Shown piece by piece: positions 11,818-45,281 of a stretch of 64,000 nt of DNA (positions are counted from its first letter, which is position 1; every line of letters starts with the position of its first letter). The DNA is from Mycobacterium sp. SMC-4 (GTDB lineage: Bacteria > Actinomycetota > Actinomycetes > Mycobacteriales > Mycobacteriaceae). The DNA lies in NCBI RefSeq assembly GCF_025263265.1, contig NZ_CP079869.1:4464001-4528000 (forward strand), in the 5' to 3' direction. The position numbers were made by a program, and so were the translations under genes. The notes beneath the pieces were generated by a model, which made no database searches, had not been told where the DNA came from, and saw nothing but the letters and a program-made list of their open reading frames with translations.

Positions 11818-12473
11818 TGGATGTCAGCGAACATGTCAATGCGGTGCGGCGCACGGTCGGCGGCCGGGCTCTCGAGGCCGGGGAAGCCCGCGTCGTCACG
11901 CTGACGCGCTCGTATGCCACCGGCGCCACTGATCTGTGGGACGCATGCACCAACCCCGAACGTCTACCGCGCTGGTTCGCGCCCGTGCACGGCGACCTAC
12001 GACTGGACGGCAAATACCAGGTGGAAGGCAATGCGTCAGGCACGGTGCTCACCTGCGACCCACCACACAGCTTCACCGCCACCTGGGAGTTCGGTGGCGG
12101 GCTGAGCTGGATCGAGTTGACGATCACCGACGAGGGACCGGAGCAGGCCAGCCTGCAACTCGATCACATCGCCCTGGTCGGCGACGAGATGTGGCCGCAG
12201 TACGGGCCCGGCGCGGTGGGCATCGGTTGGGACCTGGCGTTGCTCGGTCTGGCCATCCATCTCGAGACCGGAGAAGCTGTGCCCGCCGAGTTCAGAGAAG
12301 AGGAGTGGGTGACCACCGGCGCGGGCAGAGACTACATCCGATCTGCGGGCGAGGGCTGGTACCGGGCGCAGGTCGCCTCTGGTGAGGACACCTCGGTAGC
12401 CCGTCGGGCAGCCGACAACTCGATCGCGTTCTTCCGCGGAGACCCGCTCCCGCACAACCAGAACGCAGACTGA
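11817..12473 (+). CDS. SRPBCC (AHSA1-like) domain protein
   Basis: A 218-residue protein. The N-terminal 150 residues form an AHSA1-type START-like fold: VTLTRSYATGATDLWDACTNPERLPRWF, then GTVLTCDPPHSFTATWEFG and WIELTITDEG. The C-terminal 60 residues are helical. Such proteins bind small hydrophobic ligands. It is translated together with the ArsR gene, which probably represses both. Function unknown. Confidence 0.85.
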   Translation: MDVSEHVNAVRRTVGGRALEAGEARVVTLTRSYATGATDLWDACTNPERLPRWFAPVHGDLRLDGKYQVEGNASGTVLTCDPPHSFTATWEFGGGLSWIELTITDEGPEQASLQLDHIALVGDEMWPQYGPGAVGIGWDLALLGLAIHLETGEAVPAEFREEEWVTTGAGRDYIRSAGEGWYRAQVASGEDTSVARRAADNSIAFFRGDPLPHNQNAD

Positions 12474-12507
12474 TCAGCGAGCGACAGGACGTTGCCCAGA
12501 GCAGCGG

Positions 12508-14013
12508 TCAGGCGGCGTGGTCCTCGGGCGGGGCGGGTCCGCCGGGCTGGCCGGGGTTGTCGGCCGGGTGTGGTGCAGCCTCTGAGTCCGCAGGCGTACC
12601 GTGGTCAGCGGGATCGGTTGCTGCAGTGCTGTTTTCGCGACAGACTTCCGGCTCGTCGTCGGGTGGTCTGAGGAGCCGTTCGGGTCGGTGGTAGTAGTTG
12701 ATGCGAGCTTGTCCGGTGTCCAGGCCGGGCGGCGGGATCCATTCGACCTCGCCGCGTTCGTTCATCCTGGTGGTCCATCCGTCGGTCCCCACGCTACGGT
12801 TGTCGGGTCCGCAGGCCAGGCCGAGCTCGTCAACATTGGTGTTGCCACCGTCGGCCCAATCGGCGGTGACATGATGCACCTGGGAGCCGTAGGCGCCGAC
12901 GGTGCAGCAGGGTTTGGTGCAGCCGCCGTCCCGTCCGATCAACATGATCCGCTGCGCCGGCGACGCGATTCGCTTGGCGCGGAACAGCTCCAGCGCCGAA
13001 CCGGTGGCTCGGTCGAACACAGCCAGGTAGTGATTGGCGTGGGCAGCCATCCTGATCACCTCAGCGATCGGTATCACCGTCCCTGCGCCGCTGACGCCGA
13101 CACCGGCGCGGGACTCCAGATCCTGCAGGGTGGTACGAATGATCACCGACACCGGCAACCCGTTGAGCTTCCCGAGCTCACCACTCATCAGCGCGATCCG
13201 GCCGGCGGCGAGCAGTGCGTCATGCTGACGCTGACCCAAGCTACGTCCGTCGTTGTCAATCTGGGCCTGGGACGGGGTTCCTGAGGTGCAGGGGTGAGGA
13301 TCGTCGGGATTACACATCCCGGGCGCAGCGAATCTGGCCAGGATCGGTTCCCACACCGCCCAGGCCTCCGGTGTCAGCGTGGCGCGCAGATCGATCATTC
13401 CGTCAGAGCGCTGTCTGCTCGCCGAGACCGAGCGTTTACGGGCGCGTTCGGTGTCATCCGGTTCCGGACCGTCCTGATCGAGCAAAAACAGCGTCCGCTC
13501 CGCGCAGTCTTTGAGTTCTCGGGGGCCGTGCTTGACTGCGGTACCGACCAACTGGATCTCGAACTGTTCCCGGGTAACGGGGTCGACGAAACCCGGCAGA
13601 TTGTCGACGGCTTTGCGGATGACCGCGACGTGCTCGTCATTGATCACCCCGAGAGCCTGGGCGGACGCGGTGGCGGATAACGCGGGCGGCAACGGAGATC
13701 CGGTCAATGCCTGCCGGGGCGCCAACAGGGAGGCTTCGGTCAACCGACGATGGGCCTCGCCGGCCGAGATCCGCCACCGCACCGAGAGCACCTGTTTCCA
13801 GGACTTGGCGCCCATCTCCTTCGGTGTCGCCTCCTTCTGCAACCGGGCCAACATCCGGTTCCTGACCGAAGGCATCTGGCACCACAGGGTTTCGAGCTCA
13901 TCGAGCGCACCGACGAGATCTGTACGGGTTAGTAGATCCACATCGCAGCCAGCCAATTCATCGAAGGCAGCGCGTACCGCCGCAACCGCGGCCTGCACTC
14001 CACCTGTCGACAT
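12508..14013 (-). CDS. 13E12-repeat DUF222/HNH endonuclease-like protein
   Basis: A 501-residue member of the 13E12 family that is repeated in mycobacterial genomes. DUF222 covers most of the N-terminus (AAVAAVRAAFDELAGCDVD onward). The HNH domain is near residue 370: GRDGGCTKPCCTVG, QVHHVTADWADGG and NVDELGLACGPDNR, with the His pair and Asn intact. The last 60 residues are Pro- and Glu-rich and look disordered. ATG 14013 is chosen over 14028 as the usual family start. These genes are often hot spots of recombination, and a transposase scrap follows here. Confidence 0.85.
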   Translation of the reverse strand: MSTGGVQAAVAAVRAAFDELAGCDVDLLTRTDLVGALDELETLWCQMPSVRNRMLARLQKEATPKEMGAKSWKQVLSVRWRISAGEAHRRLTEASLLAPRQALTGSPLPPALSATASAQALGVINDEHVAVIRKAVDNLPGFVDPVTREQFEIQLVGTAVKHGPRELKDCAERTLFLLDQDGPEPDDTERARKRSVSASRQRSDGMIDLRATLTPEAWAVWEPILARFAAPGMCNPDDPHPCTSGTPSQAQIDNDGRSLGQRQHDALLAAGRIALMSGELGKLNGLPVSVIIRTTLQDLESRAGVGVSGAGTVIPIAEVIRMAAHANHYLAVFDRATGSALELFRAKRIASPAQRIMLIGRDGGCTKPCCTVGAYGSQVHHVTADWADGGNTNVDELGLACGPDNRSVGTDGWTTRMNERGEVEWIPPPGLDTGQARINYYHRPERLLRPPDDEPEVCRENSTAATDPADHGTPADSEAAPHPADNPGQPGGPAPPEDHAA

Positions 14014-33894: not shown

Positions 33895-33967
33895 GCCCTC
33901 GTAGCTCAGGGGATAGAGCACGGCTCTCCTAAAGCCGGTGTCGCAGGTTCGAATCCTGCCGGGGGCA
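33895..33967 (+). tRNA. tRNA-Arg (CCT)
   Basis: A 73-base cloverleaf. Acceptor GCCCTCG pairs with CGGGGGC, the D arm is TAGCTCAGGGGATAGAGC, anticodon stem CGGCT/AGCCG with loop CTCCTAA gives anticodon CCT (codon AGG), and the T arm is CAGGTTCGAATCCTG. No CCA is encoded. Its 3' part from 33922 is the left attachment site of the island. Confidence 0.97.
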
Positions 33968-33968
33968 C
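33922..33968 (+). repeat. attL: 47-bp direct repeat in tRNA-Arg 3' end
   Basis: These 47 bases, covering the anticodon stem to one base past the tRNA, recur without change at 41454-41500. This is the classical footprint of site-specific integration into a tRNA gene, where the element restores the 3' end of the tRNA. Confidence 0.95.
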
Positions 33969-34016: not shown

Positions 34017-34136
34017 CTAGACCCTCCCCTCTGGTCGGTGCTTGGTCGGTGCTTCGTTGGCATCGGATGGCGTCCTTTAGACGCTGCAGCTGCGCCACCG
34101 AGACTTCGACCGCGCGGTTAGTCGTCGTCGCCATTA
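34017..34136 (-). pseudogene. possible integrase C-terminal relic
   Basis: A minus-strand frame ending at TAG 34017-34019 reads HPEMLMATTTNRAVEVSVA, then QLQRLKDAIRCQRSTDQAPT. It stops 49 bases from attL, exactly where the int gene of pSAM2-like elements ends. The similarity to tyrosine integrase tails is weak, the catalytic Tyr region is not certain, and an upstream in-frame stop isolates it. It could instead be a short ORF from ATG 34136. Confidence 0.3.
34032..34051 (+). repeat. arm-like repeat, left
   Basis: TGGTCGGTGCTTGGTCGGTG holds two copies of TGGTCGGTG. The same 20-mer with one change occurs at 41341-41360, in the same orientation. The two lie 64 and 94 bases inside attL and attR. 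This placement suits integrase arm-type binding sites. Confidence 0.5.
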
Positions 34137-34392: not shown

Positions 34393-34793
34393 AGCTGCCT
34401 TCGACACACCACCATGATATTCGGAATGCTCGGAAGTCCCCTGGATGAACCCCTTCTACGGGCGACTGTTCCACGGCGACTTACACGCCGAATACCCGAC
34501 AACCTGAAACTATTGCCCTCACAACCATCAGCGACAGCCACCGTTCGCGGTGAGACAGCGAGCAGTCGCCGACGGTGCCGAAGGAATTCCAGCAGGCCCC
34601 ACTGCCGCATGTTCTCGCCGAAGCTCCGCCCTCGACCCGCACAACCATGTACCAACAGCACGGGTAAAGACCAGTTGAACTCATTCACTGGGGACACGCC
34701 GAACTCGTCGCGGCGGTGTAGGTCGTCGAAGGTCCATGACCGAGGAAGCAGCCGGGGCTACCATAACGGCTGGTGAAGGGATCAAGGGGCAGC

Positions 34794-35672
34794 GTGGACG
34801 CAGACGAAATACTTGATACAAAGATGTACCTTCGGCGGGTACGCGAATGGCCTGAGGCGGATAGGGTGAATCCGGTCCGTTGGCTGGAAGGGTTCTCAAC
34901 TCAGCACATTAACCATGCTACTGCCCTGCTCGATTCCTTCGTCTTCATCAGTGATAAGCAAGTTCGCAAGCTGTTCACCAGTACTGTGCACGCATTGTCG
35001 TGCGAGATCTCACGCCCTGGCTCTTCTTATGTGGAAAAGCAGCGCCTCTGGCGTGATTTCCTAGACTCCGTAATTGTTAGTGCGCCGACCGGTGAGGTGC
35101 CGAATCCCACCGACTCGGGCTTCATATTCCAGCGATGGGCACGGACAGAGGTAGGCATAGACGAGTCCCGTATAGTTCTCGCGTCTGACCTTCGGAGTGC
35201 CGTCGAAGCAAGGGGCGGTCCGCCATTGATAATGGTCGATGATTTCGCGGGCTCGGGGGAACAGTTTTTAAACACTTGGCAACGGCAAGTATGGCCCACT
35301 AGTCCCAAGACGTTAGAAGAACTGGCCGCGGTGCACTCGATAGACGTATATTACCTTCCCCTAATAGCAACTCAATACGCTATAGATCGAATTTCAAGGG
35401 AAGCACCGGGAGCCACACTAAGGCCTAGCCATGTCTTGAGTGACGTATACAACGCATTGGACCCGAATACTATAGTATTCCCCGATGACCTCAAGGCGGA
35501 TGCCGCAGCATTCATACGGGACGCCAGTGCCGCGGCAGGTATCACGAAGTGGGTCGACGGCTTCCATCATCTTGGATTGAACATCGCATTCGGACATTCG
35601 ATACCAGATGCATGTCTTGCACTGCTGTGGAGTGAGGAGGGGGGATGGAAGCCGCTGATGTCCCGAACATAA
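34794..35672 (+). CDS. PRTase-like protein (PRTase-CE type), cassette gene 1
   Basis: A 292-residue protein starting at GTG 34794 after AAGGGG (GTG 34773 is possible but has no ribosome site). The central motif PPLIMVDDFAGSGEQF (about 144-158) is a phosphoribosyltransferase PRPP loop, D-D-x-x-G-S/T-G. The C-terminal FGHSIPDACLALLWSE and WKPLM are like the end of PRTase-CE proteins, a group predicted in bacterial conflict systems. The N-terminal 100 residues are helical and unassigned. The gene overlaps the ATPase start by 28 bases. It may modify a nucleotide or RNA, or act as the effector; this is inference. Confidence 0.7.
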   Translation: MDADEILDTKMYLRRVREWPEADRVNPVRWLEGFSTQHINHATALLDSFVFISDKQVRKLFTSTVHALSCEISRPGSSYVEKQRLWRDFLDSVIVSAPTGEVPNPTDSGFIFQRWARTEVGIDESRIVLASDLRSAVEARGGPPLIMVDDFAGSGEQFLNTWQRQVWPTSPKTLEELAAVHSIDVYYLPLIATQYAIDRISREAPGATLRPSHVLSDVYNALDPNTIVFPDDLKADAAAFIRDASAAAGITKWVDGFHHLGLNIAFGHSIPDACLALLWSEEGGWKPLMSRT

Positions 35673-37564
35673 CTGCATCAGAGCTTTCAGTCACCGAGAA
35701 AGCTCAGCGCTTGAATGCTGTGTTCGGATCGCTAAGAGCCGAATATTTTCGCGACGAGCTGTTTGAGCTATTTACGCACCCCGCGTATTTCCCGGAGTTG
35801 CTTGACCGAGGTCCATGTTTACTCGTAGGCGGTCGTGGGACCGGCAAAACGACGGTACTTAAAACACTGACTTACGAAGGACAGGCGCATTTCAACACAT
35901 CACGGCCAGTAAGCGACTGGGACTTTGTAGGGCTGTATTGGCGAGTCGACACGAGTATAGTCAGGGCATTCGAAGGCGAAGAACTTTCCGAAGTCCGCTG
36001 GACGCGGCTATTCGCTCACTACGTCAATCTGACCCTATCGGGGCTAATCCTAGATTTCCACGAGTGGTACGAAAGCCGATCTGCTTGCCCACTCGAAGTG
36101 TCGAAGAAGAGCCTCGAAATGGCAGCCAGATCACTAGGCATACCGGGTGTAACCGAGACAATCGATCTTAAGTCAGGTATAGAGTCAGCACTTCTCGATT
36201 TAGAAACCACGATAAACAATCTTGGACGGGAAGGTGAGGCGTCCCCGACCATATCTGCCTCTGGCCGCCCAGTTCAATACCTCATCGAAGCGATCAACGC
36301 AGACAAGACTTTGCGTGGCAAAACGTACTATTTCTTGATCGATGAGTATGAGAATCTGAGCAATTATCAACAACGATTGATGAATACCTTGATCAAACAC
36401 GCAGGAGACCATCCCTATACATTCAAAGTCGGAATGCGTGAGATGGGTCATCGGGAACGTTCGACGATCAATCCGGATGAGCAGCTAATAGCTCCAGCGG
36501 ACTACAAGTACATTGATATTTCCGAGCGGTTTGATGATGCATCCTTTTCAAATTTCGCGAGACAGGTTTGCGAAAGCCGACTAGAACGCCTGCGCCAAGA
36601 ATTTCCAGTCTTGGACACGGTGGACGAACTTTTTCCTTCACTGAGTGAGGAAGCGGAGGCCGAGAAACTCGGCGTTGACAACCTAAACGAACGTACGCGC
36701 GCTGAGCTAAGTTCACTCGGTGCGTCCGAGGACGAGCTCGCCAGCTTCGACTCTCTTTCCCCATTGTCGGCTTACTTGGTCAAGTACTGGGCCGAATCCA
36801 AACGGATTGATTCGCTAACAGTGCTTAGAGAAGCGTTGACGTACAGCGAAAGATGGAATACGCGATTAAGTAACTATCAGCATGCAATGCTCTACACGAT
36901 TAGGCGTGGTAAGCGTGGTTTCAGAAAGTATTACAGTGGTTGGCCTACGTTCACCAAACTAGCCGATGGGAACATTCGATACTTACTCCAACTTGTCCAC
37001 GAAGCGCTTCAAACTCACCTTCGATCCCGTCCAGATGCTCTGGCTGTGCCTGTGGCTGCCGAAGTACAGACGGAATCAGCAGGAGTGATCGGTGCGCTAG
37101 TGGTGAGGCAACTTCAGGGTGTGTCAGCCAATAGCGCACGCCTCACGAGACTCGTGTTGGGTCTTGGCAGGATATTTCAAGTCATGGCCGCGCAGCCTGA
37201 AGGGCATTCTCCCGAGGTGTCACAATTTCGTTTGAGCTCGACGCCTGACGATGCGAGTGAGGATCTACTTCGCGCCGCTGTGATGCATTTAGCCGTTCGG
37301 CGTTTTGCCACTGATAAGATGGCGGCAGTGTCTGGGCAGACCAGGGACTTTAGTTACCAGCTGCACCCGATATTCGCACCGTTTTTCATTTTCAGTTACC
37401 GAAGCAAACGGCGGATGGATTTAACGCCGCAAGAGTTGAATGGGCTAGTTGATAGTCCTGCCGCGACTATTTCCAGCATCCTGCGGAAGAGTAACCGCTC
37501 TGTTGAAGAAGAGCTTCCTCCCCAATTGATGTTATTCAGTGGGTACTACAATGACCCTGATTGA
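35645..37564 (+). CDS. ORC/CDC6-like AAA ATPase, cassette gene 2
   Basis: A 639-residue P-loop NTPase. FGSLRAEYFRDELFELFTHP and FPELLDRGPC lead into Walker A GGRGTGKTT (62-70). Walker B is YYFLIDEYEN (228-237), followed by a sensor-like KVGMREMGHRERST (261-274). The remaining 350 residues are mostly helical with no clear catalytic motif and may sense or recruit. This matches proteins labelled ORC-CDC6 family AAA ATPase, which recur next to PRTase-CE genes. A strong GAGGAGGGGG site precedes ATG 35645. Likely role: NTP-driven sensor or switch of the system. Confidence 0.8.
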   Translation: MEAADVPNITASELSVTEKAQRLNAVFGSLRAEYFRDELFELFTHPAYFPELLDRGPCLLVGGRGTGKTTVLKTLTYEGQAHFNTSRPVSDWDFVGLYWRVDTSIVRAFEGEELSEVRWTRLFAHYVNLTLSGLILDFHEWYESRSACPLEVSKKSLEMAARSLGIPGVTETIDLKSGIESALLDLETTINNLGREGEASPTISASGRPVQYLIEAINADKTLRGKTYYFLIDEYENLSNYQQRLMNTLIKHAGDHPYTFKVGMREMGHRERSTINPDEQLIAPADYKYIDISERFDDASFSNFARQVCESRLERLRQEFPVLDTVDELFPSLSEEAEAEKLGVDNLNERTRAELSSLGASEDELASFDSLSPLSAYLVKYWAESKRIDSLTVLREALTYSERWNTRLSNYQHAMLYTIRRGKRGFRKYYSGWPTFTKLADGNIRYLLQLVHEALQTHLRSRPDALAVPVAAEVQTESAGVIGALVVRQLQGVSANSARLTRLVLGLGRIFQVMAAQPEGHSPEVSQFRLSSTPDDASEDLLRAAVMHLAVRRFATDKMAAVSGQTRDFSYQLHPIFAPFFIFSYRSKRRMDLTPQELNGLVDSPAATISSILRKSNRSVEEELPPQLMLFSGYYNDPD

Positions 37565-38516
37565 TGAGCCGCTTCTGACGCGAGTAATACCTCGGAAGGA
37601 TCTTCAGCTGGAAAAAGGTTCTTTTTATCTCTTCGGACGCGGAATTGAGGACAGGGCTGTCATTGACTCGAGTTGGAGAGCTGCTGCAGAAGCCGACGGA
37701 GTTCTTTTCCTTGATGTCATAGAAAACGGAGACGCTGTCATCCTCATGTCTTCTCAAGGCGAAGTTTTGAACTTCACGGGCCGAAGGCGTGAGCAAGCCA
37801 TTGCCTTCTTCCAGTCGAAGCCCAGTTACCTAGACATTACTGGTATGTCGTATTCAGCTTGGGGGCCACTTGTTCTGGCTGCGGTCGAGTCAGGGGCCCC
37901 GTTTAGAGTGGTCTACGTCGAACCAATGGACTATAGGCGGAGCGACACACCGACGCAGGGAATGAACTTTGACCTGTCTGAAGGTTTTGAGGGTATTCGG
38001 CCTATTCCCGGGTTCGCAACCCTGCGGCTAAGAACCAGTTCTGATTGGCACCTTGTGGCTGCACTCGGTTTCGAAGGTGTCCGTTTCTCGTATGTGCTGA
38101 ATGAGTTGGAGCCGGCTAGCGATAGAGTGCACCCTATAGTCGGCGTCCCCGGCTTTCGACCCGAATTTGCTTCACATGCATTCATCGCGAACCGTGCTGA
38201 CTTGGACGACGTGGCTATCGTTCCGAACATCAGACTGGCGAGAGCTAACTGTCCTTTCGACATGTTCCACACTCTTCGGAAACTGCATGAAGACATCGGT
38301 GGAGCGCAACTGAGGCTGGCCCCCATCGGCACAAAGCCGCACGGTCTCGGTGCGGTTTTGTACACGATAAGCAGTCCGTCTAATGTTCAACTGATCCATG
38401 ACCATCCGCGTCGGAAAGCCAAGCGAACTCTGGGTGTCTCGCAGGTCTGTTTGTACGAGGTATCGACGTTCTGCGAGTCGGATCTCTTTCGTAAGCCCGT
38501 GAGTAGCGGCCCGTGA
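37551..38516 (+). CDS. unrecognised protein, cassette gene 3
   Basis: A 321-residue protein of no family I can name. Its ATG 37551 lies within the end of the ATPase gene (14-base overlap), and it overlaps the methyltransferase by 4 bases, so it is a fixed part of the set. Conserved-looking motifs are DVIENGDAVILMSS (54-67), ANCPFDMF (232-239) and PIGTKPHGLGA (258-268); the last might bind a phosphate or nucleotide. No signal or membrane segment is seen. The end, DHPRRKAKRTLG, is basic. It might be a specificity or assembly subunit. Confidence 0.7.
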   Translation: MTLIDEPLLTRVIPRKDLQLEKGSFYLFGRGIEDRAVIDSSWRAAAEADGVLFLDVIENGDAVILMSSQGEVLNFTGRRREQAIAFFQSKPSYLDITGMSYSAWGPLVLAAVESGAPFRVVYVEPMDYRRSDTPTQGMNFDLSEGFEGIRPIPGFATLRLRTSSDWHLVAALGFEGVRFSYVLNELEPASDRVHPIVGVPGFRPEFASHAFIANRADLDDVAIVPNIRLARANCPFDMFHTLRKLHEDIGGAQLRLAPIGTKPHGLGAVLYTISSPSNVQLIHDHPRRKAKRTLGVSQVCLYEVSTFCESDLFRKPVSSGP

Positions 38517-39664
38517 CGCTTGAGAATGACCGGCACTACACGCCGATGTGGCTTGCTGATGAGCTTTCGCACCTGCTGCCGGCAGATATCAACAGCGTCG
38601 TTGATCTGTCGGCTGGTGTTGGGTCACTGCTCGAAGCGGCGTGCCGGCGCTTCGGTCGGTTGGCCGTGGGCGCAGCGGACCTGGATTCGGAGGCAGTCCG
38701 GCATCTTCGAAAGGCGCATCCGGACTGGAAGGTTAGTTATACCAACTCTCTTGTGCCAAAGTCGTACCGTGCGTCGGCTGCCTTTCGGCAGCTGTCCGGT
38801 TCCTACGACGCCGCGCTGCTGAATCCACCGTTTTCTTACAGAGGTGGCTCGCGTATCAACCTGGTTTGCAACGGCTCTACCTACAAGGTGACGCCTGCGA
38901 CTGCGTTTGTTGCCCATGCGATGAACTGGGTGCGGCCCGGGGGGACGATCGTCGCCATCGTGCCGAAGAACGTGATGGATATCCGAACCGATGCCAGCGT
39001 GTGGGGAGGTTGGAGATCGGAACTCCAAATCGACCGCGTGCGGGAGCTGGGCAGGCATACGTTCCAGAGCGCGCGTACAACAGCGATGGTTGTTGTGCTC
39101 AAGAAGTCAGCTCGTCGGAGGCGGGGGTCCCGAAATCTTGGCGCTGTGAGCGTTCCCTCGGTCTTGCCCGCCACCCTTGGCCAGCGCTGCACATGTGTCG
39201 AAGTGGTGCGTGGCCGCGTTCCGGTGTACCGGGCAAAGTCGTTCTGTGGCGATGCGGACACTGCGTTCGTTCATACGACAATGCTTCGAGAAGGGAGGCT
39301 CCAACTGACGAAGGCGATGGGCCCTAATGAGCTCGCGAGTGTTGGACCGATGATTCTAATACCGCGTGTGGGCAAGCCGTCGTCCCAGAAAGTGGTGCGG
39401 AACTCGTTACCGCTTCTGGTTCTCAGTGACTGCGTATTCGGCCTAAGAACCCTAGATCCGCGAGTGAGAAAGGTTCTCCACCGGGCGCTTGTCGACGAGT
39501 TTGACGATCTTGCAGAATGCTACACGGGTTCCTGTGCACCCTATTTGACAGTCGATCGGCTTGTGAATTGGCTAAAAGTGCGCGGCTTCAACGCTTCTCA
39601 CGTCGCTCCGTCGTCAAGTCCCGGGTGGTGTGAGTGCGGCGGCGCAGATGCCGAACTCGCGTGA
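38513..39664 (+). CDS. N6-adenine DNA methyltransferase, cassette gene 4
   Basis: A 383-residue methyltransferase. SAM motif I is VVDLSAGVGSLLEAA (29-43), HYTPMWLADEL is the usual N-terminal lead-in, and the catalytic motif IV is LLNPPFSYRGG (NPPF at 104-107), the adenine-N6 type. Residues about 200-383 (PRVGKPSSQKVVRN, then YLTVDRLVNWLKVRGF) would be the target-recognition part. GTG 38513 is coupled to gene 3 by a 4-base overlap. No restriction nuclease is next to it; it may mark self-DNA or modify target DNA. Confidence 0.82.
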   Translation: MTLENDRHYTPMWLADELSHLLPADINSVVDLSAGVGSLLEAACRRFGRLAVGAADLDSEAVRHLRKAHPDWKVSYTNSLVPKSYRASAAFRQLSGSYDAALLNPPFSYRGGSRINLVCNGSTYKVTPATAFVAHAMNWVRPGGTIVAIVPKNVMDIRTDASVWGGWRSELQIDRVRELGRHTFQSARTTAMVVVLKKSARRRRGSRNLGAVSVPSVLPATLGQRCTCVEVVRGRVPVYRAKSFCGDADTAFVHTTMLREGRLQLTKAMGPNELASVGPMILIPRVGKPSSQKVVRNSLPLLVLSDCVFGLRTLDPRVRKVLHRALVDEFDDLAECYTGSCAPYLTVDRLVNWLKVRGFNASHVAPSSSPGWCECGGADAELA

Positions 39665-39670
39665 TATTGG

Positions 39671-40273
39671 TTAGCCCGCTCGCTCCACCGTCCGCGCACG
39701 CTGACCGGTCCATTTGCGTGTACCGAACGCTGCTCTCCAGCCTGCACTCAGTCCATCCCATAGCTTGGCGAGGCGGTCCTTCGATGTATGACGCATCGTG
39801 AGCGTCAACAAGTACACGCTTCCGCCTTGCCGGTGGCATTCGCGGACCGCCGCAGCAATTTCCGCCGCCCTAGTGTGCGCGACCACTGCCGAGCACCGAG
39901 GGCACGACCACACAGATCCGCACGTCATCAATCCCTGATAGCTCGCAATCGACTGCCCATTCACTTCGCGCCTCTTGAGGGCGACCGTCTGACCGTCGTC
40001 GGCGTCCCCCACAGCGTCGTTGTGCAACATTCGACCGCAGCAACGGACGGCTTTCAAGGATGAAGCCTGCCAGAGCATCGCTCGGGCACCCCAGCGATCT
40101 CGGCGCTTCTCCGCAGAGGCCAACAACCCGGCCTCGACACCAGTTGTGAAGCAATAACTCTGAGTACTACCAAGAGCGCTCGCTGCGCTCGCGCCGTCGA
40201 CGCTCTGGACCTCCGCGCGAGCGCTCCGGTCCGCCGCGCCGCCGTCCTCGTCCAGCCAGATTCCGTTTGTCAT
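39671..40273 (-). pseudogene. truncated rolling-circle Rep protein
   Basis: A 200-residue fragment with CCGRMLHNDA, CGSVWSCPRCSAVVAHTRAAEI (Cys-rich) and GGSVYLLTLTMRHTSKDRLAKL, WDGLSAGWRAAF, as in actinomycete Rep proteins of the RepSA/pSN22 kind. Those are more than twice as long; here the frame stops just before the expected H-x-H catalytic motif and Tyr. Its stop is 6 bases from the convergent methyltransferase stop. It is coupled to the 144-aa gene by 4 bases. It is almost surely dead for replication. Confidence 0.75.
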
Positions 40274-41340: not shown

Positions 41341-41360
41341 TGGTCGGTGCCTGGTCGGTG
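41341..41360 (+). repeat. arm-like repeat, right
   Basis: TGGTCGGTGCCTGGTCGGTG differs by one base from 34032-34051 and has the same direction. It stands 94 bases inside attR. Confidence 0.5.
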
Positions 41361-41453: not shown

Positions 41454-41500
41454 GGCTCTCCTAAAGCCGGTGTCGCAGGTTCGAATCCTGCCGGGGGCAC
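41454..41500 (+). repeat. attR: 47-bp direct repeat
   Basis: Exact copy of 33922-33968. It holds the 3' two thirds of a tRNA-Arg without the acceptor 5' strand and D arm, so it is not a second tRNA gene. It marks the right border of the island. Confidence 0.95.
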
Positions 41501-41547
41501 CATGTGATGTCGCAAGACATCGGAATAGCCGTGGATCTGCTTTAGGT

Positions 41548-41887: not shown

Positions 41888-42373
41888 GTGGGCAGACTCG
41901 AAGACGAGATGAAGGCGCAACGGCGACGCGATGCGGAGTGGGCGGCCAAAGAGGCTCAGTGGAGTGCTGAGGCCAGCCGCATCCGAGTTGAGTTCGTCCA
42001 GCTGATGCAGCGTCACCGTGTGCCGACCGAACCGCTGTTCGCGAAGGGCGAGGGAACGTTCCCCAGCGGGCTGTTTCGCACGAAGAGGAAGACCCTCAGC
42101 ACCTACTCCCACATTGGCGAGGTATGGCTAGTGCAGGCCGGGGAGTGGCAGGGCAACTGGACGGCGATGACCACCAACGCAGAACTTTGGGAGGTCACCA
42201 CCGTCAGCTTTCGAGGTCAGGAGGTTCATTCCTATCCCGGCTACGACGACCGTGCGAAGCGAGAGCTACTTGCAGTCGGGTGCATCCGCGTGCGCTCTCG
42301 TCCTTGTGTGTACGGGAATCGCCCCCAGGTGGCGGAACCCCTCGCAACCGCAGCAACGCGGCTTCTTGGCTAG
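41888..42373 (+). CDS. hypothetical protein in prophage debris
   Basis: A 161-residue protein from GTG (ATG 41909 possible). The first 40 residues are a charged helix (DEMKAQRRRDAEWAAKEAQW); the rest, TEPLFAKGEGTFPSGLF onward, looks globular with many Trp and Tyr. No family is recognised. It overlaps the convergent HNH gene by 4 bases. A phage origin is likely from the neighbours. Confidence 0.5.
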   Translation: MGRLEDEMKAQRRRDAEWAAKEAQWSAEASRIRVEFVQLMQRHRVPTEPLFAKGEGTFPSGLFRTKRKTLSTYSHIGEVWLVQAGEWQGNWTAMTTNAELWEVTTVSFRGQEVHSYPGYDDRAKRELLAVGCIRVRSRPCVYGNRPQVAEPLATAATRLLG

Positions 42374-42645
42374 CGGTCCCGCCTACTTGAGTTGCACCGC
42401 CCGCACGCGGGCAGCACGTTCGATGGGTGGTGGGTGCCGCCGCGCGACAGCGGGATTCGGTGCTCCCACGAGGTGGCCGGGGCGCCCTTGCATAGGATCT
42501 GCATTTGGCATGTCAGCCCGGTGGGCCGGCCGAGGGCGCGGTATTCGCGACTGTCATAGCCGGCGTTGCGGCGCTTGCGGTGGCAGCTGTGGCAGCGTGA
42601 AGCCGTGGTCAACCGACCGCAGTCAAGGCAGGGCCGGCGGATCAT
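42370..42645 (-). CDS. phage-type HNH endonuclease
   Basis: A 91-residue protein. Two C-x-x-C zinc knuckles (CLDCG and CHSCH) precede the HNH core EHRIPLSRGGTHHPSNVLP and ACGRCNSSRRDR. Such small HNH proteins sit near the cos site and terminase of phages and help packaging. It overlaps the gp10-like gene by 4 bases (ATGA). All core residues are present. Confidence 0.85.
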   Translation of the reverse strand: MIRRPCLDCGRLTTASRCHSCHRKRRNAGYDSREYRALGRPTGLTCQMQILCKGAPATSWEHRIPLSRGGTHHPSNVLPACGRCNSSRRDR

Positions 42646-42995
42646 TCGTCGTCTTCGGCGGGCGAGTTGAATACCGCGGCTGTGCGGTTCCATACGTCGA
42701 ACGCAGGCGTTGCGCCGTGTTCTTCGCCTTGACCGCGGCCGTGGATGATGGTGGCGACCTTAGCGGGGTCGTCGGTGCTGACGATGCGAGCCACGCGGGT
42801 CTTCTTGCCCATTTTCTTGTATTTGACTCGGCGGGTTTCGAGGCTGTCGCGGAAGTCGCCGGAATCCTCGGGTGCGATGGCTTTGGCCACGTCAAGTACG
42901 TCGTCGGCGATCTCGTAGAGGTTGGCGCGTAGATCCTCGTTAGCGGCGAACGCTTCACGCATTGCCTTCGCGAACTCTTTGTCTTGCTGTGCCAT
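42642..42995 (-). CDS. phage head-tail/neck-type structural protein
   Basis: A 117-residue protein: EDLRANLYEIADDVLDVAKAI, PEDSGDFRDSL and VARIVSTDDPAKVATIIHGRG, a pattern of HK97 gp10-like or minor neck proteins, where a helix is followed by the A-P-x-x-S-G motif. ATG 42995 follows GAAAGG. Normally this gene lies before tail genes; here it comes after a tape-measure relic, a sign of rearrangement. Confidence 0.7.
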   Translation of the reverse strand: MAQQDKEFAKAMREAFAANEDLRANLYEIADDVLDVAKAIAPEDSGDFRDSLETRRVKYKKMGKKTRVARIVSTDDPAKVATIIHGRGQGEEHGATPAFDVWNRTAAVFNSPAEDDE

Positions 42996-43016
42996 TCACA
43001 ACCTTTCGGGCTATGT

Positions 43017-43051
43017 GAAGGGCCGGAACCCTTTGAGAGTTCCGGCCCTTC
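43017..43051. terminator. strong hairpin after the tape-measure relic
   Basis: GAAGGGCCGGAAC and GTTCCGGCCCTTC form a perfect 13-bp stem with a 9-base loop. It is located between the tape-measure pseudogene and the gp10-like gene, and could end transcription from either strand. Confidence 0.65.
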
Positions 43052-43059
43052 GACATTGG

Positions 43060-45010
43060 GGCATATCCCGGATTCATCTGTGCTGCCTGCGTGGCGTAGG
43101 CCAGGTCGTTGCAGCCCTGCATGCCGTTCCGGTCTTCTGCCTGCACGAAACGCTCGATGTTGACTGTCGGCGCCTGCTGACCGTGCGGGCCGGCGGTACA
43201 GGGTTGTCCCGGCTGGCCGTTCTGGCCCTGGCATTGGTTCTGCGGGGCCTTGGGGTCGACCTGAGAGTTCTTGTCGGCCTTGCCCTCGTTCTGTCCATCG
43301 GCCGGCTTCATGCCAGCCAGGCCGCCGGCGATACGCTGCAACCACGAGACACCGAGGCCGTTGGAGCGCCAACGGGGTCACTTACGCCGAAGGTTTCCAT
43401 AAGCCTTTGCATCCCGATGCCGGCCGCTTGGCCATCAAAGGCGATGGTCCGCTGGATAGCCTTTTTGGGCCATGTCCGCCTGAGCCGCAGCACCACTGCC
43501 CGGGGCGAACATGTTCGCACCCATACCCGCGGCGCCTGAGACCAGGCCCATGGCCATGCCAAGGAATCCGGACCCGAGCTGGCCACCACCCTGGGGCTGC
43601 CAGAACGGTGCCGCCTGCTCCGACGGGGTGGTCGGAGCGTAGGACGCTGAGAACGCGTCCGGGAAAACACTGGAGAGTGGGCCACCCGTGGGGACGGTGC
43701 CCGGCGCCGGCAGTCCGCTGGTGAGCGCGGGATTGGTCAGTGCCGGGTTGGCGTTGGCCGCCGCCGATGACAGTGGCGGTGGGATTACCAAACCGCCCGT
43801 GCCGTTGCCGGCCTGCGGCATCCACGGTGTGGACGGTGCGCCGGTCGGCATCGTGGCCACCGGGCGGTAATACTGCTCGGTGAGCGCCGGGGCGGCCGCT
43901 CCGAGTCCACCCACACCACCGCGGGCCGCGGCAGCATCGCTACCCCAGTTCCACGGCGTGCCGCCGGGCACGGTGGCTTGCATGTGGCCGCTGTTGAACC
44001 CGAGTCGGAATGTGCCGGGTCCACCGGTACCGGGCAAGAACCCTTGCGCGGACAGCCATTCGTGGGCGTTACCGGTGGTGAGCTTCTGCCCGCCGGTCGA
44101 ATTGCCGTCCATGATGTTGACCAGATCGCCGATGGAGCTGGAGCAATCCGACAAGCCCTTAAGCAGGTCCCTATCGGGCGCCTGCGAGTAACGGCCAGGT
44201 CGCACGTTGACCAGGAGCGCCGCATCGCCTGCGTATCCACCACCATAGGACAGTGGGCCGAACTGCGGGAAGCCCTGTGCTGTTCCGCCTTGCGGATTGC
44301 ACCCGCCGCCGGCGATCTGGCTCAGAATCCCCTGCAGTGGTGCCGTGGCCAGATTGGCCAGGAACCGCACCAGATTGTCGGCCAGACCGGGCAGTCCCTT
44401 GGAGAAACCGAGGTCGCTATCGAGGTTGGCTCCGATCTCGGCGAAGTCAGACGAAATGTCCTGCATGCCTTCCGACATGCCGGTGGCCGCGGCGGTCATC
44501 TGTTCGTTGAACCGCAGTTGCGCCTGCAGCTGATCGGACCGCGCGGCCTGTAATTCACTGCGGGCCTTAGCGATATCGCCTTCGGTCGCGGTGTTGTCCG
44601 TCATAATCGCGTTCAGCTCGGCGGCCTCTTGCGCCACCTTGTGCTGTGCGTCCAGGAGTGACTGTGCGGCGCCGTAGGTGGTCGAGTTGACCGGGTGACC
44701 CTGCAGCAGATCCATGACATTGCCGGAGAACGGCACCACCGGGCCAGGTTGGCTAGCTCCCCCGCTGCTGCTGTAGTCCCTGTCGTACTGCGACCCGAAC
44801 CGAGGATTGTCCACGGGGCGGGTCACGTTCGGCCCCCACCACATGCCGGGAGCTGGCCCAGGTGCTGGCACCGCGGGTGCTGCGGGTGTGCCGCCGGCAT
44901 GCTGACCAGTGATTACATCCAAGGGGTTGAGGTTGCCGCCGGGTGTGCCGGGTGGAGTGATGGCCGGCCCCGACTGAAAGATGGGAACGCCGGGTGCACC
45001 TGGCGTGAGC
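43060..45010 (-). pseudogene. phage tape-measure protein, C-terminal relic
   Basis: The main frame holds QPGPVVPFSGNVMDLLQGHP, a helical stretch with ELNAIMTDNTATEGDIAKAR, then LSDCSSSIGDLVNIMDG, GFNSGHMQATVPGGTPWNWG, the usual C-terminal part of mycobacteriophage tape-measure proteins. Near 43460 an extra A in an A-run shifts the frame (next part KAIQRTIAFDGQAAGIGMQR), and near 43375 a second shift leads to WLQRIAGGLAGMKPADGQ and VNIERFVQAEDRNG. The N-terminal part is absent. Non-functional. Confidence 0.8.
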
Positions 45011-45022
45011 TGCGGGCGGTCG

Positions 45023-45068
45023 TATTCCGATGTCTTGAGACACCCTATTCCGATGTCCTGAAACACCA
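45023..45068 (+). repeat. two 23-bp tandem IS-end-like repeats
   Basis: TATTCCGATGTCTTGAGACA and TATTCCGATGTCCTGAAACA begin two 23-base units that agree at 20 of 23 positions. The same TATTCCGATGTCTTG word lies next to the transposase scrap at 41515-41530 on the other strand. The pair is probably the end of an IS481-type element. From 45069 to 45281 no further feature is seen. Confidence 0.55.
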
Positions 45069-45281
45069 CACTCCCGGGGGCTCTGCTGCGTTTCGGGTGA
45101 TGCTTGACACTCCCCGAATGAGGGAGTTGCGTGTGCGGCGGCGACCAACCCGGTTGATATTCGGTGGCACCGTCCCAGGTGCGAGCGATACGTTCACTTC
45201 CTCGAATTGCGGCGCGGCCCAAGGACGTGCTCTGGGACCAACGCCAGCCCCCTCGGCAATCCAATCCAAGGAGTGCTTCCG

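Follow-up and report, generated by a model that had tools for sequence, protein, structure and literature searches.

Several described defence systems of bacteria, namely BREX, DISARM, MADS and Dnd/Ssp, combine a DNA methyltransferase with an ATPase, and ATPases of the ORC/Cdc6 kind are used in BREX (PMC12839542) and in Ssp (PMC10853773). The genome of Mycobacterium sp. SMC-4 carries a compact four-gene operon with both components. It lies in a window of 64,000 nucleotides, the whole stretch of DNA analysed here (contig NZ_CP079869.1, positions 4,464,001 to 4,528,000), and encodes a PRTase-CE family protein of the phosphoribosyltransferase (PRTase) type (gene 1), an ORC-CDC6-like ATPase (gene 2), a CARF-fold protein (gene 3) and a DNA methyltransferase (gene 4). 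With moderate confidence, the operon is interpreted as a mobile antiviral (conflict) module in which four proteins would form a CARF-gated, nucleotide-attacking system tied to deoxyuridine nucleotides. Unlike BREX, DISARM, MADS and Dnd/Ssp, the four genes include no PglZ, large BrxC, nuclease or helicase. Against BREX they gave only weak PglX matches (E 0.01) and no match to PglZ or BrxC, and the MAD2 match of MADS, at 15.5 bits, falls far below the cut-off of 720.

Other known systems share single components with the operon. Type II and type III restriction-modification systems differ from it in that no endonuclease family was found among the four genes. Gene 1 matches the PRTase effector models of type III-A retrons (PADLOC PRTase_III-A, 2.6e-18), whereas protein profile scans, which did not extend to retron RNA, found no reverse transcriptase among the four genes. 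Gene 3 shares its fold with the CARF proteins of type III CRISPR systems (Csm6, Can1, Can2, Card1 and Cam1) and also matches the CARF6 profile, but its 321 amino acids include no attached nuclease or membrane part and no Cas gene is among the four. At the level of families, Pfam already names those of genes 1 and 2, and PADLOC covers gene 1 with its retron PRTase models and gene 3 with CARF6. The PRTase-CE, HD-CE and Calcineurin-CE families (Pfam PF24390, PF24391 and PF24408) reportedly go back to Nicastro et al. (NAR 2023), who may well describe the PRTase-ORC pair already; gene 1 belongs to the first of these, and relatives hold HD-CE or a Calcineurin-like protein in the same slot. With two families already in Pfam and a third in PADLOC, the new parts of the proposal are the CARF gate and the deoxyuridine link.

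Nucleotide-directed defence offers further points of comparison. Clover, composed of the dGTPase CloA and the nucleotidyltransferase CloB, is alike in principle, as its nucleotide-destroying effector is regulated by thymidine-branch nucleotides, with dTTP activating the dGTPase (PMC12265719); it provides a precedent for a nucleotide-degrading defence that can respond to a pyrimidine deoxynucleotide. Its gene set is different, and no protein family common to the two was seen. AvcID, according to PMC10511110, has a deoxycytidylate deaminase toxin and places defence on the dC to dU branch, which it shares with the present proposal, but it is a two-part toxin-RNA system, and its defence was unchanged by Dut overexpression. 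DefensePredictor lists dUTPase among predicted, unvalidated defence domains and mentions PRTase in a legend, while the term "ORC" is absent from the main text as far as it was available (PMC13092281). A search of the available literature returned no paper that treats the four genes as a unit, gene 3 as its CARF component or the dUTPase link, and none on CARF6, PRTase-CE, HD-CE or Calcineurin-CE; the term "ORC-CDC6-like" did occur in one.

The four genes and their products

The initial annotation described four plus-strand genes with overlaps of 28, 14 and 4 nt, an arrangement that the coordinates of the open reading frames (ORFs) bear out. ORFs at the loci compared here are mechanical calls from the first start codon, so that some genes are extended too far upstream and not every flanking ORF is a gene. 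Gene 1 runs from 34773 to 35672 (299 amino acids), gene 2 from 35645 to 37564 (639 amino acids), gene 3 from its ATG at 37551 to 38516 (321 amino acids; the longest ORF starts at 37539) and gene 4 from 38513 to 39664 (383 amino acids). Of the span first proposed, 34794 to 39664, the end stands; its start is an in-frame GTG lying 21 nt downstream of the longer gene 1 start, and its use would give a protein of 292 amino acids. The motifs read from the letters (VDDFAGSGEQ, GGRGTGKTT, FLIDEYEN and NPPF) are each present in the translations. The GC content is indeed lower than that of the flanks: in 1-kb windows it is 0.49-0.60 for the six between 34 and 40 kb and 0.61-0.71 for all others.

The PRTase-like character first noted for gene 1 is supported by Pfam, in which the protein scores 144.9 bits against PRTase-CE (gathering score 27), and by structure comparison, which returned a PRTase fold; its sequence profile gave only chance matches in the PDB. 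A loop of the phosphoribosyl pyrophosphate (PRPP) type, DD[FLY]xG[ST]G, is present in 80 of 89 relatives and deviates in nine. The product is a predicted nucleotide-targeting effector.

Gene 2 had been called ORC/CDC6-like, and it matches Pfam PF24389 at 3.4e-137, with 459 bits against a gathering score of 27. The Walker A pattern (GGRGTGKTT in the window) is found at 85 of 89 loci and DE[YF]EN (FLIDEYEN in the window) at 86. A profile search of the PDB recovered other P-loop proteins, the best being Midasin (3.3e-9), and the PADLOC models gave nothing strong.

The third protein had been left without assignment, a description that no longer holds. It was identified as CARF by the PADLOC CARF6 profile PDLC01913 (9.4e-90, residues 8-312) and by the fold of a confidently predicted model, whose best matches were Csm6, Can2, Card1 and Can1, with the Rossmann-like fold of CARF domains. 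The single chain probably holds two CARF-like domains. Since gene 3 has a CARF fold, it is likely to be the sensor, rather than the ATPase alone, and it is predicted to bind a nucleotide ligand; we know of no ligand for CARF proteins outside CRISPR. Neither a scan of genome contigs with the gene 3 protein by itself nor one of viral contigs with a gene 3 alignment returned a relative.

For gene 4, the N6-adenine methyltransferase assignment agrees with PDB profile matches, which are closest to N6-adenine DNA methyltransferases (EcoR124II M 5.8e-16, BseCI 3.6e-14 and TaqI 1.2e-8). In Pfam, MTS was found above its cut-off (2.5e-6) and N6_Mtase below it (15.7 bits against 20.4). The S-adenosylmethionine motif precedes NPP[FYW], which is present in all 85 gene 4 relatives found, and the conserved C-terminal region may read the target.

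Conservation and distribution of the operon

Recurrence was assessed by a census of gene neighbourhoods. An alignment scan with gene 2 found 117 relatives in genome contigs, of which 80 were kept, and two in viral contigs. The window itself, four named records of plasmids or phages and two loci taken from random genomes bring the total to 89 loci, including seven pairs with at least 90% identity in gene 2. All four genes occur together at 85 of the 89. Among the 85, 79 have the order 1-2-3-4 on one strand, as in the window, and five have 4-1-2-3, while gene 4 is on the other strand at L082. The spacing is 30 nt or less, mostly as overlaps or short gaps, in 84/84 measured pairs of genes 1 and 2, 82/84 of genes 2 and 3, and 76/79 of genes 3 and 4. 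No gene 4 match was found at L010, L110 and L114; the last two have a different methyltransferase upstream. L065 runs off its contig, and the gene 4 of L043 is set apart by 2.7 kb, beyond another ATPase, an additional P-loop protein being encoded at 11922-13610 between gene 3 and the methyltransferase.

The constancy of the methyltransferase, and the substitute at L110 and L114, would fit a restriction- or BREX-like system that uses no nucleotide signal, in which the ATPase and methyltransferase compare methylation, the CARF protein serves purely as a structural adaptor and the PRTase is set free by unmethylated DNA alone. The central place of ORC/Cdc6 ATPases in BREX and related DNA systems (PMC12839542 and PMC10853773) points the same way. 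Such a system is considered unlikely here: gene 3 is found at 88 of 89 loci with its GTKP motif kept in 73 of the 88, which is hard to explain for a mere adaptor, and the deoxyuridine enzymes discussed below would be left unexplained.

By record title, the hosts belong to Actinomycetota, Pseudomonadota, Bacteroidota, Planctomycetota, Acidobacteriota, Myxococcota, Nitrospiria, Ignavibacteriales and Pseudodesulfovibrio. Two metagenome bins (L066 and L037) have a gene 2 very near that of another phylum and may be misbinned, and L108 is recorded as phage, yet its neighbours look chromosomal. The four-gene system is rare. A near full-length gene 2 is present in 2 of 396 genomes in the phylum of the L001 host, and at E 1e-20 gene 2 was found in 5 of 395 in the phylum of the L047 host, one of the five being a partial match of 235 positions (both counts include the centre genome). 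In three families chosen for holding the system, the counts were 10/249, 7/248 and 10/251. The first five relatives fetched from random genomes included four that were very divergent. One genome (G006) has two differing copies of the system, L079 and L158, and at L113 (7560-11270) a protein of 1,236 amino acids with an ORC-CDC6-like part is encoded next to an N6_N4_Mtase gene.

Conjugative plasmids are among the carriers; gene 2 has a match in 150 plasmid records, and Klebsiella accounts for 129 of them. A divergent version in the order 4-1-2-3 is found on the conjugative plasmid pKPHS2 (L106, 5588-10694). Four of 5,426 E. coli genomes carry this pKPHS2-type version, all on plasmids and in strains whose names are of a conjugation type; no copy near the Moraxella version was found in the E. 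coli genomes.

A probably interchangeable effector

The initial annotation assigned the effector role to the PRTase, and the gene neighbourhoods of distant relatives speak for it. Directly before the ATPase, the place of PRTase-CE is taken by a Calcineurin-like phosphoesterase at L111, L112, L146, L147 and L151, and by HD-CE at L159 and L164-L167, all of them divergent relatives. The Calcineurin-like loci also encode a winged helix-turn-helix protein of the wHTH-Calcineurin_assc family, which at L151 falls below the Pfam cut-off. The gene 3 homologue is still recognised at L111 and L164-L167, and L112, L146, L147 and L151 have an unassigned ORF of similar size in the gene 3 position. Conversely, among 398 genomes in the phylum of the L014 host, PRTase-CE was found without this ATPase within about 1.5 kb in 16 of 18 instances, the other two being census loci. 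Given this exchange of families in front of the ATPase, gene 1 probably acts as an effector that can be swapped; the exchange, together with the occurrence of PRTase-CE without the ATPase, is the pattern that an interchangeable effector predicts.

Deoxyuridine enzymes beside the operon

Clustering of flanking ORFs and Pfam scans revealed a recurrent class of neighbour. At 22 of the 89 loci, 24 genes for enzymes of deoxyuridine nucleotides adjoin the operon; 60 loci have none and seven are too near a contig end to assess. A dimeric dUTPase (dUTPase_2, PF08761) lies directly upstream of gene 1 at 11 loci, overlapping or abutting its start, and a trimeric dUTPase (PF00692) is beside the operon at eight. 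DCD-like proteins (PF22769) account for three genes at two loci and ThyX (PF02511) is found at two. The DCD-like neighbours at L024 (4684-5472) and L025 (6914-7528) end in hydrophobic, membrane-like stretches and, by eye, are without what we take to be the usual catalytic glutamate; they are perhaps sensors instead of enzymes.

The Pfam scan covered 138 neighbours, 133 of them ORFs chosen by rule from 79 loci and five accessory genes added by hand. Among the families listed, dUTPase_2 ranked first with 11, followed by DCD with 10 (overlapping with dUTPase), dUTPase with nine and Phage_integrase with eight, and 19 of the 133 rule-chosen neighbours are of the dUTPase, DCD or ThyX kinds. On a tree of gene 2, the loci with the dimeric dUTPase form one clade of 11 (support 100), while the trimeric dUTPase, DCD and ThyX are scattered; at least 11 changes of neighbour state are required, on a quick tree that does not distinguish gain from loss. 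A new sample of 25 loci from further genomes contained 16 of the PRTase type, of which three repeated earlier loci (L150, L154 and L168) and 13 were new. Only one of these 13 (L156) has a dUTPase, placed after gene 3, so the deoxyuridine link, recurrent and real, is less frequent than the first sample suggests.

This frequency bears on whether the neighbours are passengers, such genes being common on phages and mobile elements and the operon residing in mobile DNA. The mobility of the operon, the low count in the new sample and the possibility that the main dUTPase_2 group, with its 11 loci, goes back to a single old event are in keeping with that explanation, which nevertheless appears rather unlikely. 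Every one of the 24 genes is in contact with the operon or at most 154 nt from it, except for one of a DCD pair at 574 nt, and when four neighbour profiles were run against the 6,487 ORFs of 92 loci, no dUTPase, DCD or ThyX was found away from the operon in flanks of up to 9 kb (the profiles were built from neighbours already found and could miss distant versions, though the trimeric dUTPase is very conserved). The junction of dUTPase_2 with the gene 1 start, and the scattered branches on which the trimeric dUTPases, DCD and ThyX occur, also argue against passengers.

The same neighbours might instead indicate a pure metabolite sensor. Gene 3 would then sense a deoxyuridine nucleotide, dUTP or another, whose level goes up during infection, the neighbouring dUTPases would act as an off-switch in the manner of the CRISPR ring nucleases, and gene 4 would have some other role. 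The adjoining of two unrelated dUTPase folds, DCD-like proteins and ThyX is consistent with this, as are the CARF fold of gene 3 and the defence enzyme of Clover that is switched by dTTP (PMC12265719). Nevertheless, it is considered quite unlikely, as the ligand of gene 3 is a supposition, DCD and ThyX are not simple dUTP off-switches, most loci are without such neighbours and the methyltransferase is left unexplained.

Proposed mechanism

In the preferred interpretation, a CARF-gated conflict module, the effector chemistry, ligand, order of events and antiviral role are all inferred. The ORC/CDC6-type ATPase encoded by gene 2 would assemble on DNA, and the gene 4 methyltransferase would modify host DNA so that it is not mistaken for foreign. 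The double-CARF gate of gene 3 would bind a nucleotide ligand and thereby release the effector, a PRTase-fold enzyme predicted to cleave or deplete nucleotides, most probably those of uracil or another pyrimidine. The resulting loss of nucleotides would stop DNA replication in the infected cell. Neighbouring dUTPase, DCD-like or ThyX proteins may keep deoxyuridine nucleotides low, either to avoid false triggering or to shield the host from the effector.

A narrower form of this mechanism is doubtful as a whole, with its relay, effector and threshold steps. It would be a non-CRISPR CARF defence that binds, in place of a cyclic oligoadenylate, a deoxyuridine nucleotide from the thymidylate pathway, either dUTP or something made from it. 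A phage that remodels the dNTP pool would set off gene 3, and the signal would pass through the ORC ATPase to the uracil-PRTase-like effector, which would strip pyrimidine nucleotides. The linked dUTPase, DCD-like and ThyX proteins, recruited repeatedly from unrelated folds, would set the threshold as ring nucleases do in type III CRISPR.

Several observations weigh against the gated, deoxyuridine-linked module. For gene 1, uracil-PRTase leads other PRTases by only about 1 Z unit, which the tool rates as a tie. The PDB profile search gave no relative confirming an ORC fold for gene 2. For gene 3, Foldseek with the predicted model returned no CARF match below E 0.001, and the sequence profile found no CARF in the PDB, only chance matches. 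No second-messenger synthetase is among the four genes, though one may lie nearby, each neighbour scan having listed 25 families. The 60 loci with no deoxyuridine-enzyme neighbour include the window, and the new sample added a single case. Finally, a DCD enzyme would make dUTP rather than remove it, so that the neighbours as a group give a mixed picture.

The island and adjoining DNA

The operon had been placed inside a tRNA island, a view now borne out and sharpened. The island is 7.5 kb of low-GC DNA between two exact 47-nt direct repeats of the 3' half of tRNA-Arg(cct), the gene (33895-33968, plus strand) that provides the integration site. The left att-like copy is at 33922-33968 and the right at 41454-41500, both on the plus strand and 7,532 nt apart. 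Both match DNA at attP or at a tRNA end in actinophages, among them RP3, VWB, SF3 and OnionKnight, and because the repeat matches the attP cores of actinophages, the island is seen to sit in an integration site already known from phages. A 20-nt repeat, TGGTCGGTGCTTGGTCGGTG (34032-34051, plus strand), stands just inside the left end and is matched with one difference just inside the right end (41341-41360, plus strand); the two were spotted by eye and are possible integrase arm sites. Three minus-strand ORFs lie between gene 4 and the right repeat. One of these (39671-40273), which ends 7 nt past gene 4, is a shortened homologue of the phage or plasmid protein phrog_11698 (16-154 of 394) and possibly a replication initiator. 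The searches run on the island's ORFs recognised no integrase, and the island may therefore be a decayed integrative element.

Past the right repeat, homologues of HNH, HK97-gp10-like and tape-measure proteins are encoded on the minus strand at 42370-45264 and represent another prophage, distinct from the island, or what is left of one. This prophage-like stretch is flanked by a sequence of about 20-26 nt (41503-41528 and 45023-45070) that recurs in both inverted and direct orientation.

The att-like repeats, the conjugative plasmids and the integrase neighbours together indicate that the operon is mobile. Its presence on conjugative plasmids, with most plasmid records from Klebsiella, its place in a tRNA island and the eight phage integrases among the 138 scanned neighbours could also be expected of a maintenance or competition module that stabilises plasmids and islands, with the PRTase as toxin and no antiviral role. 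This is regarded as very improbable, given that the effector families recur elsewhere, as seen in PRTase-CE without a nearby ATPase and in the match to the PADLOC retron effector, and that single neighbours match models of defence genes such as BrxL, AbiE and type I methyltransferase.

Significance

In this compact operon, a predicted CARF sensor is combined with an ORC/CDC6 ATPase, a DNA methyltransferase and a probably swappable effector that would attack nucleotides, and dUTP enzymes adjoin it at about a quarter of the loci. It makes the ligand of non-CRISPR CARF proteins a concrete question, namely whether a deoxyuridine nucleotide is bound by gene 3 with its threshold set by a dUTPase. 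If the proposal is true, DNA self-marking and defence through the nucleotide pool would be joined in one machine.

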